Part shown: positions 50,693 through 53,989 of the stretch, in pieces
Layout: the number at the start of each line of letters is the position of its first letter
How positions within the stretch are numbered: the first letter of the stretch is position 1
Assembly (NCBI GenBank): GCA_020059605.1
Contig: JAGVBT010000164.1
Span: forward strand, 55,431-119,430
DNA from: Deltaproteobacteria bacterium
GTDB taxonomy: Bacteria > Desulfobacterota > BSN033 > UBA1163
Direction of reading: 5' to 3'
Length of the DNA: 64,000 bases
Position numbers and translations under genes: made by a program
The notes under the pieces: model-generated
The model's database searches: none
Seen by the model: the letters and a program-made list of their open reading frames with translations, nothing else
What the model was told of the DNA's origin: nothing

Positions 50693-50987
50693 GTGATTAA
50701 GTCATTCAAACATAAGGGACTTGAGGACTTTTTCTATACAGGAAAGAAGAAAGGCATAAAGCCGGAACACGCTGACCGGCTGGAGAGAATTCTTGATAGG
50801 TTAAATGCTGCGAGTGAAATAAGGGACATGAATTATCCTGGTTCCGACCTGCACAAGTTGGCAGGTGACAAGAAGGGCCAATATGCTGTAAAAGTTTCTG
50901 GAAATTGGAAGAGTCTTTTTCGAGTTTGTCAACGGCAACGCCTATATTGTCGATTACGGCGATTATCACCGAGAGGTGAGGACATGA
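50693..50987 (+). pseudogene. HigB/RelE-type toxin, frameshifted into HigA frame
   Basis: MIKSFKHKGLEDFFYTGKKKGIKPEHADRLERILDRLNAASEIRDMNYPGSDLHKLAGDKKGQYAVKVSGNWKS; next frame continues VFFEFVNGNAYIVDYGDYHREVRT* with ATGA overlap to HigA. Confidence 0.8.
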
Positions 50988-51298
50988 GAAAAATGGAAAG
51001 AGAACCAACGCATCCAGGGAGGATTATAAGAGAAGACTATTTGAAGCCTTTAGCGATGACGATTAGCGAGTTTGCATCGGTTCTCGGTGTTTCAAGAAAG
51101 ACTTTATCAAAAATCCTCAATGGAAGGGGAGCTGTTACTCCGGACATGGCGCTTCGTTTGGCTCGTGCTTTTAATACAACCGCTGATTTCTGGCTCAATT
51201 TGCAGAAGAATCACGATTTGTGGCAGGCGGAGCATACATCGAATGATTGGCAGAGGGTAAAACCCATCTCCCCCCAGTTAATTCATTCTCATTTGTAG
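50984..51298 (+). CDS. higA: HigA-type HTH antitoxin
   Basis: EREPTHPGRIIREDYLKPLAMTISEFASVLGVSRKTLSKILNGRGAVTPDMALRLARAFNTTADFWLNLQKNHDLW. Confidence 0.9.
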   Translation: MRKMEREPTHPGRIIREDYLKPLAMTISEFASVLGVSRKTLSKILNGRGAVTPDMALRLARAFNTTADFWLNLQKNHDLWQAEHTSNDWQRVKPISPQLIHSHL

Positions 51299-51303
51299 AA
51301 AGC

Positions 51304-51393
51304 AGTGAACAACTGCATGAACCTGAGGCGGATTAGCCGCGTCAGGTTTTTGGAATCGATGGGTGCCCGCGCAAGTTATACAAATCGTTCTGC
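51304..51393 (+). other. Degenerate attC-like recombination site (attC-0)
   Basis: GTGAAC-type left core, AACCTGAGGCGG/CCGCGTCAGGTT internal stem, right core AAATCGTTCTGC similar to AAATCGTTCGGC of the next site. Confidence 0.45.
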
Positions 51394-51413: not shown

Positions 51414-51767
51414 ATGGAAAGAACTAGAACTATCTCTTGGGGCGACCCGCAAATTAGCAAGAGAGATGCTGTTACTTCGATTTCTGGGTTAGACTATCTA
51501 AAGGCAATAAAGGAAGATAGAATTAGCCCACCGCCAGTTGCTAATCTTGTTGGCTATAAGATTTACGAAGTCGATAATGGTTACGCCGCTTTTGATCTTA
51601 ATCCCGCAGAATATCATTATAATCCTTTTGCAACAGTTCATGGCGGTAATCTTTCAACATTGCTTGATACTACAATGACGGCTTCAGTCCTATCAACGCT
51701 TCCAAAGCACTATAGCTGCACAACAATTGAGATTAAAGTAAATTTTATCAAATCATGGGAAGGCTGA
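51414..51767 (+). pseudogene. PaaI-family thioesterase, C-terminally truncated
   Basis: LVGYKIYEVDNGYAAFDLNPAEYHYNPFATVHGGNLSTLLDTTMTASVLSTLPKHYSCTTIEIKVNFIKSWEG*; hotdog HGG motif then abrupt end. Confidence 0.7.
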
Positions 51768-51817: not shown

Positions 51818-51910
51818 ATGAAAAAGATAACTGCGACCGATGTCCTGGAATTATCGATACCAGAAAGGATTCAATTGGTAGAAGATATTTGGGACACCAT
51901 ATGCCAGTAG
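51818..51910 (+). pseudogene. Addiction-module antitoxin stub
   Basis: MKKITATDVLELSIPERIQLVEDIWDTICQ*, matches N-terminus of putative addiction module components; truncated at the intron-remnant junction. Confidence 0.65.
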
Positions 51911-52681
51911 CCCTTTCTGCTTAGTCCCGCCAGTATCGCCTGATACCGGACCGAACCAAGTTTGATAAGCTCGCCGATGCGTCTTCTGGTCCTGCGCCAC
52001 TGTTTCCAGTAACCCATGCGGATATGCCTGCGTAGCCAATGATCCGGTTCAACCGCGTCATTGTACTTCATCCCGACACCGAAATAATTCATCCATCCCG
52101 GGATGTATCGGAGGAGGGATGAGTATCGGTATTGCATGGATACGCCCCAACTGCGCCCGGTCAGGCGGCGCAGCCGTGTTTTGAATCCATGGATAGCTTT
52201 CTCAGTGGCAGTCAGTTTCATCCTCGTGAACGTGAACCCAAGGAAAGAACTGTCCTGAGCACGGACCACGTTGCTTTTGCCCCTGTTCACCCTGACCTTG
52301 AGTTTTGTCTCAAGGAAACGGCTGATCCTTGCCATCACGCGATGAGCGGCACGTTCCGACTTGATCAGGATGATCAGATTATCCGAGTAGCGTGCGAACC
52401 GATGACCCCGCTTTTCAAGCTTCTTATCGGGGTCATCCAGAAGAATATTGCTCAACATTGGCGAAAGAGGGCCGCCTTGCGGCACTCCCTCGGCTCGCAC
52501 GTTTGCACTCCGGCTTCCTTCAGACGGTCGGTTGTCCTCCCGCCCTTGCCTTCGGCTCGTACTTTTGGTAGTATTCCTGAACATGAATACCCTCGGTTCT
52601 CGTACAGGGGACTTCCTGCCCCGCCGTAGCCTCTGGCGAAGCAGGTCACCCCATAAGTTCACGCCCATGCCGGGCGTACAC
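51899..52681 (-). mobile_element. Internally deleted group II intron remnant with partial reverse transcriptase/maturase
   Basis: RT ORF piece RAEGVPQGGPLSPMLSNILLDDPDKKLEKRGHRFARYSDNLIILIKSERAAHRVMARISRFLETKLKVRVNRGKSNV...FLGFTFT...SRKGYWHM; 5' end GTGTACGCCCGGCATGGGCGTGAACTTATGG at 52681 reading leftwards. Confidence 0.85.
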
Positions 52682-52764
52682 AACTAAATCAACCCGACCG
52701 GGAATAGGCTCGTTTAGTTTCAATGCGGTGTGGTTGCCCCGGCGGGTTATTTAAATCGTTCGGC
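52682..52764 (+). other. attC-like site interrupted by the intron (attC-1)
   Basis: L'' AACCCG(A)CCGGG (52691-52702), L' CCCCGGCGGGTT (52737-52748), R' GTTCGGC (52758-52764); R'' reduced to AAC at the intron edge. Confidence 0.7.
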
Positions 52765-52784: not shown

Positions 52785-53287
<503 letters not shown>

Positions 53288-53301
<14 letters not shown>

Positions 53302-53347
53302 ACCGGATCGCCGATAAACCCAGCTCCCAGTTACCTCTTCGTTCGGC
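53288..53347 (+). other. attC-like site (attC-2)
   Basis: Exactly complementary cores GCCGAAC (53288-53294) and GTTCGGC (53341-53347); imperfect inner arms GCTGAACCGG / CCAGTTACC with one extra base. Confidence 0.65.
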
Positions 53348-53361
53348 GCGACATAAAAAAG

Positions 53362-53907
53362 ATGAAGGATAGCGATATGACCCCGAAAAAATTTTTTGAC
53401 TGGCAGACAGCGGGCGGTGCGGATGATGTCATGCGTTTGGTTGATTGTCTCGAGCGGGCGGATCTTGCATGGTGCGCAATTGGCGGCATAGCTGTTAATC
53501 ATTGGGCCGAGGAACCGATAGTGACTCAAGTTGTCGATTTCGTCGTTGTGGCAGAATCCGTAGAGCTCGCCACGAAACTTCTTGAGGAGGCCGGATTTGA
53601 ATCGGAACGTTTTCAGTGGTCAACTAATTTTCGCGGTCGTTCGAAGGTGAGTATTCAATTGAGTACGGAAGATTTCTATAAAGAGTTTCCGAGTCGATCT
53701 GTTCCGGCAGATATACACGGGATTCTTATGCGAGTTGCTTCTCTAGAAGATACGTTGCGCGGAAAAATCAAAGCGTGGCGAGATACGGAAAGAAGACAGA
53801 GCAAAAAGCTCAAGGACCTCGGCGACATCGCCCGGTTGGTAGAAAGCCATCCTCATCTTTGGGAACTTCTTGACGCGGATTTGAAACAAATCATTCATAA
53901 ACAATAA
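53362..53907 (+). CDS. Nucleotidyltransferase-like protein
   Basis: LVDCLERADLAWCAIGGIAVNHWAEEPIVTQVVDFVVV... (GG-x-A-VNHW-x9-DFVV NTase pattern) RVASLEDTLRGKIKAWRD. Confidence 0.7.
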   Translation: MKDSDMTPKKFFDWQTAGGADDVMRLVDCLERADLAWCAIGGIAVNHWAEEPIVTQVVDFVVVAESVELATKLLEEAGFESERFQWSTNFRGRSKVSIQLSTEDFYKEFPSRSVPADIHGILMRVASLEDTLRGKIKAWRDTERRQSKKLKDLGDIARLVESHPHLWELLDADLKQIIHKQ

Positions 53908-53917
53908 TTGTGCAGGG

Positions 53918-53989
53918 GCCGAACAACGGCATGCACCAGACCCCAAAAGCCTTGTGGCTTTCGGTTCTGGTGATGCCGGAGCGTTGGAG
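53918..53989 (+). other. attC-like site (attC-3), best preserved
   Basis: R'' GCCGAAC, L'' CGGCAT(G)CACCAGA, variable stem AAAGCC ttgt GGCTTT, L' TCTGGTGATGCCG, R' core GTTGGAG. Confidence 0.75.

Follow-up and report, generated by a model that had tools for sequence, protein, structure and literature searches.

A dead group IIC-attC intron fragment, inserted antisense in an attC site of a toxin–antitoxin cassette array

The minus strand from 52679 to 51899 of the window (the whole 64-kb stretch of DNA analyzed here) carries a decayed group II intron of the IIC-attC kind. We hold with high confidence that it is a dead fragment of such a retrointron, inserted antisense in the R'' core of a cassette attC site, at GT|T. 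The sequence, splice boundary, intron class, site and orientation are established. Counting against this reading is that neither IBS3 nor restoration of R'' is visible in the window copy, whose 3' end and 3' exon are gone. The low Rfam score, EBS1-IBS1 pairing at the shuffled level across the family, the chance-level scan score of attC-0 and the ordinary fold energy of attC-1, all given below, count against it as well. The choice of site is ordinary for the family, being that of a known kind of intron at its usual landing place; the copy itself is new, and dead. The features are collected in Table 1.

Table 1. Coordinates of the intron fragment, the attC sites and the neighboring cassette genes in the window
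Feature	Coordinates	Strand	Basis
HigB-HigA fused ORF, cassette gene	50693..51298	+	
attC-0, unoccupied; empty target CAGTTGTTCAC on minus	51304..51393	+	Homology to occupied G003 attC
Hotdog thioesterase, 3' end truncated	51414..51767	+	TIGR00369 positions 2-74 of 117
Unstab_antitox (RelB-like) gene, 5' fragment fused to intron	51818..51902	+	PF09720 E=2.1e-5
3' breakpoint, ~4-nt microhomology (CATA/ATAT) with antitoxin gene	51899..51902		G013 homology stops there
RT/maturase fragment, QGGPLSP through domain X to KGYWHM	51899..52489	-	RVT_1 + GIIM; PDB GsI-IIC RT E=6e-47; tree
Internal deletion junction GAGCCGA|GGGAGTGCCGC	52489..52490	-	~905 nt absent relative to L061
Intron 5' part: start GTACGCCCGGCATGGGCG + domain I, ends at internal deletion	52490..52679	-	Alignment + motif census
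EBS1 loop ACAA	52532..52535	-	Loop position from Rfam D1D4-3 alignment
Palindromic REP-like insert, domain I hairpin loop	52615..52645	-	Comparison with relatives
5' exon end GTTGT; IBS1 = TTGT at 52683-52680	52680..52684	-	Joined-exon test + class 1 integron copies
attC-1, split by intron	52680..52764	-	7/7 L pairs with one extrahelical base
BrnT toxin + downstream ORF (putative BrnA position), next cassette	52821..53301	+	
AbiEii-like nucleotidyltransferase, cassette gene	53362..53907	+	
attC-2, unoccupied; R'' GCCGAAC, R' GTTGGAG	53918..53989	+	De novo scan + fold

The first ~190 nt of the fragment (52679-52490) are a true intron 5' end followed by domain I of the IIC type, as alignment with known members (G003, L061, L054, L050 and the class 1 integron intron L101) indicates. 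Rfam at its gathering score (32) returns no group II match in the 64-kb window; a relaxed search with the group II model gives 19.8 bits. At 52490/52489 domain I passes, across a deletion, straight into the QGGPLSP part of the reverse transcriptase (RT), whose active site (52389-52378) is YSDN instead of the YADD of intact relatives. Domains V and VI (DV, DVI), the intron 3' end and the 3' exon are lost from this copy; a search with a DV motif gave no match, and the 3' end was instead defined from full-length copies. With EBS3-IBS3, DV, DVI and an intact RT, all features needed for activity, deleted or mutated, we infer that the fragment is incapable of autonomous splicing or movement. The open reading frame at 51871-52683 is not a gene: in its frame, neither domain I nor the antisense strand of the antitoxin contains a stop, and that alone keeps it open. 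A search of the intron for an outward promoter facing brnT gave nothing above chance. The REP-like palindrome in the domain I loop, CCTGCTTCGCC..GGCTACGGCGGGGCAGG, is missing from G003 and the full-length relatives; a similar insert occupies the same loop in L007, L008 and L010, from records titled Deltaproteobacteria or Desulfobacteraceae.

In the PDB, the RT is matched best by class C group II RTs (GsI-IIC, 6e-47; LtrA reaches only 4e-7). In a tree of 26 rows and 197 shared columns, the window RT and that of G013 fall in a 16-row clade (96/94) together with all the class 1 integron attC introns; outside this clade lie L105-L108 (class C, no integron context), a Bacteroidetes RT and five more distant RTs. 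The initial annotation had proposed phylogeny as a check on membership of the attC-targeting class C lineage, and the RT does fall inside that clade. The window branch joins the phylum's own copies, not the plasmid branch, with moderate support (91/88, 86/90).

Read on the minus strand, attC-1 comprises R' GCCGAAC (52764-52758), a spacer, L' AATAACC, L'' GGTT[G]ATT, TAGTT and R'' GT|, the last box being split by the intron and reduced to GT. The earlier claim that the rest of the site survives beside the intron thus holds for R', L' and L'' with its one extrahelical base, and R' is GTTCGGC as claimed, by comparison with the aadA attC; an alternative R', GTTATTT, was dropped on the same comparison. 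The overall fold energy of attC-1 is not unusual (z=-0.4). Published work gives TTGT/T, within R'' on the attC bottom strand, as the consensus target of IIC-attC introns (PMC7923331); the TTGT half is read directly in the window, and the /T is inferred from two-ended relatives. EBS1 ACAA pairs with IBS1 TTGT at 4/4 Watson-Crick positions (5/5 counting the next C). No EBS1-IBS1 covariation was found: the four pairs form in 26/38 copies, against a shuffled mean of 26.1. Because pairing across the family is at the shuffled level, the match agrees with the model without proving it.

That a group II intron 5' end lies on the minus strand, as first proposed, is borne out: the quoted 5'-end sequence is present there, and its 31-nt motif (at most three mismatches) has 65 matches in 40/395 genomes of the phylum, the reversed pattern having none. 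The initial annotation gave the element as 51899-52702, with its 5' end exactly after the GTT of R''. The truncation at ~51899 and the location at the R'' end of an attC both stand; the other end is instead 52679, with the G there as intron nucleotide 1, and the junction is 2 nt further downstream, at GT|T. The GTT taken for the R'' core (plus-strand positions 52684-52682) actually closes the 5-nt spacer TAGTT between L'' and R'', and the exon's last GT (52681-52680, minus) is the surviving start of R''. An intron beginning GTGTACG after a complete GTT core is what the window copy, taken alone, spells out (...AGTT|GTGTACG), and a GUGYG-type start is the textbook 5' end; we nevertheless regard this boundary as very improbable, and the relatives refute it. 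The two-ended and class 1 integron copies start at GTACG, and the complete relatives L061, L062, L050 and L054 end ...TACCCGAT, the next base being T. The attC R'' box has the form GTTRRRY. When the exons are joined at ...GT|GTACG and CCCGAT|T, the resulting 7-mer starts GTT in 14 of 15 two-ended copies (GTTAGAC, GTTATGC and GTTAGGC, for example). In this count the search pattern itself partly fixes the GT at -2/-1 but has no bearing on the 3' exon. The class 1 integron introns on plasmids, with an identical start, yield an aadA-type attC at the same boundary (GAATTGT+TAGAC). A cut two bases earlier gives neither the GTT restoration nor the aadA-type attC, and no conserved intron sequence was seen upstream of GTACG among the relatives. 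It is these GTT starts and class 1 integron copies, therefore, that place the junction 2 nt downstream. The same comparison bears on whether the 5' boundary could be a mere deletion breakpoint within domain I that abuts GTT by chance. The window copy is indeed deleted at two other places, but many copies with unrelated flanks diverge at one and the same nucleotide, from the first bases outward with the motif itself conserved, and complete introns share that start; we give this reading hardly any credence.

It is also conceivable that a class C intron sits here behind an intrinsic terminator and that the likeness to attC is fortuitous. IIC-attC introns are reported to have kept terminator targeting (PMC7923331), and the strict attC test is passed by only 19/58 genomic copies (2.3 expected), against 7/8 plasmid reference copies (0.2 expected). 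Given both, the intron alone is no proof of an attC. At the window site, however, R', 7/7 L pairing, one extrahelical base and correct spacings occur together, an anatomy that ~4% of shuffled sites pass under a distance limit wide enough for short attC sites. A homologous attC is occupied in G003, cassette-like genes lie on both sides in one direction, and empty attC sites stand in the same array. One of these, attC-0, shares 85% identity over 71 bp (E=3e-16) with the attC that carries the intron in G003; its score in the de novo attC scan is at chance. The other, attC-2, scores 22 in that scan against a shuffle maximum of 20 and folds with z=-5.7; its empty minus-strand target is CCGTTGTTCGGC, also given as CCGTTGTTCGG. 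Both carry the empty target GTTGTT. It is the direct attC anatomy and these two empty sites that establish the attC in the window, and we judge the terminator explanation highly unlikely.

The GT|T insertion in attC-1 also bears on the surrounding genes. The array holds HigBA, the truncated thioesterase, the antitoxin fragment, BrnT with its ORF, and the AbiEii-like transferase, with RHH-ParE further on; PF04365 covers 52821-53093, and the ORF at 53080-53301 has no family match. On both flanks the cassette genes lie on the plus strand and the intron on the minus, in agreement with the earlier expectation of insertion in the attC bottom strand, opposite to the cassettes. The initial annotation's use of the intron as independent support for a cassette array is likewise sustained, by the anatomy of attC-1 and by the empty attC-0 and attC-2 alongside. 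This sequence anatomy confirms the toxin–antitoxin cluster at ~50.7-54.0 kb as an integron-type cassette array, with recombination at its sites predicted. A possible degenerate attC past the BrnT cassette (~53302-53345, GCTGAAC ... GTTCGGC) was not picked out by the scan. No integron integrase (TIGR02249) match was found on the window's 119-kb contig, C5, so the array is a CALIN in this assembly; a CALIN is defined by at least two attC sites without an adjacent integrase, and attC-0, attC-1 and attC-2 are such sites. One TIGR02249 match over the family cut-off is present in the assembly, on C158: L128 (G000:C158, 5779-7023, minus) is a 414-aa recombinase of the integron-integrase family (412.8 bits) with a ~100-aa N-terminal extension. 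The scan found no attC above chance on that contig.

The assembly (93.7% complete, 167 contigs) yielded no other near-complete copy of the intron. The search for a full-length copy that had been proposed as a check therefore reveals none with another 5' boundary. A 3' intron fragment with an RT piece, DV and the DVI end lies on C13 (L087, 6197-6412) between glyS and katG, outside any array and without an attC, and C107 carries an RT N-terminal piece.

The reverse-splicing event and the order of the deletions most probably ran as follows. A full-length ancestor of ~1.85-2 kb would have reverse spliced into the bottom strand of a cassette attC, folded and in single-stranded form, with EBS1 ACAA pairing with IBS1 TTGT and the attC hairpin in place of IBS2. 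The intron would have entered the R'' core at GT|T, with its orientation opposite to that of the cassettes, in an attC-1 that would previously have read ...TTTAGTTGTT..., then RRRY. A cassette gene would thereby have been split from its attC; in a class 1 integron, S.ma.I2 has been reported to separate gene and attC in the same way (PMC8876359). Later deletions would have destroyed the RT, taking ~0.9 kb out of the intron and stripping away its entire 3' end, the 3' exon and most of the cassette gene. One of them, with microhomology at its junction, would have left the RT fragment joined to a partial antitoxin gene. The thioesterase is cut after IKSWEG, with the antitoxin gene leader directly next. 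A second deletion junction, between thioesterase and antitoxin leader, is probable at ~51765.

Relatives of the fragment occur in other genomes of the phylum. In G003, of the same genus, an intron 5' part lies in another attC at the identical position; G013, of the same family, has the complementary 3' fragment (88% identity over 421 nt), with its true 3' end kept. The genome G032 holds two 814-nt introns without ORFs, L067 (starting at ~966) and L070 (starting at ~873, minus), which are 98.2% identical over 819 nt and occupy separate attC-like sites, with joined R'' GTTAGGC and GTTATGC. This pair suggests recent movement in trans of an RT-less IIC-attC intron. Very short copies, L009 (221 nt), L066 (242 nt) and L007 (459 nt), have both ends intact and a joined R'' that starts GTT; they may be either internal-deletion derivatives or miniature introns. 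It is possible, if rather unlikely, that the phylum has its own IIC-attC branch beside the class 1 integron branch, in ~10% of sampled genomes and including short RT-less copies still moving in trans, and that decay and recombination of these introns, as in the window, help shuffle chromosomal cassette arrays.

IIC-attC introns are best known from class 1 integrons; the copies described here widen their range to ~10% of the genomes sampled from the host's phylum. The window copy provides independent support for an integron-type cassette array at ~50.7-54.0 kb. For annotation, the conserved GT ahead of GTACG is to be assigned to the attC and not counted as intron sequence. The class 1 integron IIC-attC introns, of which S.ma.I2 is the type in the literature, are represented here by the plasmid copies L099, L100, L101, L103, L104 and L113. 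These start GTACGCCC and end ACCCGAT|TAGAC; in common with the window family, they have the start GTACGCCC(A/G)GCATGGGC and the end ACCCGAT|T. They also share the TTGT/T site in the attC bottom strand, the orientation opposite to the cassettes and a single class C RT clade, within which the window RT is ~45-55% identical to theirs over the shared region. Unlike them, the window copy has an internal deletion, no 3' end and a REP-like insert, and its array has no integrase on the 119-kb contig. Terminator-type class C introns (the GsI-IIC RT and similar) have the class C RT and the IIC RNA type in common with it but a different target, and the tested non-attC class C plasmid RTs, L105-L108, lie outside the attC clade. 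UHB.F1, from a soda-lake cassette array, is likewise a truncated IIC-attC fragment, antisense in an array with toxin–antitoxin genes; it keeps its 3' end and is thought to be 5'-truncated (PMC7923331). The converse holds for the window copy, which retains the 5' end and has lost the 3' end.
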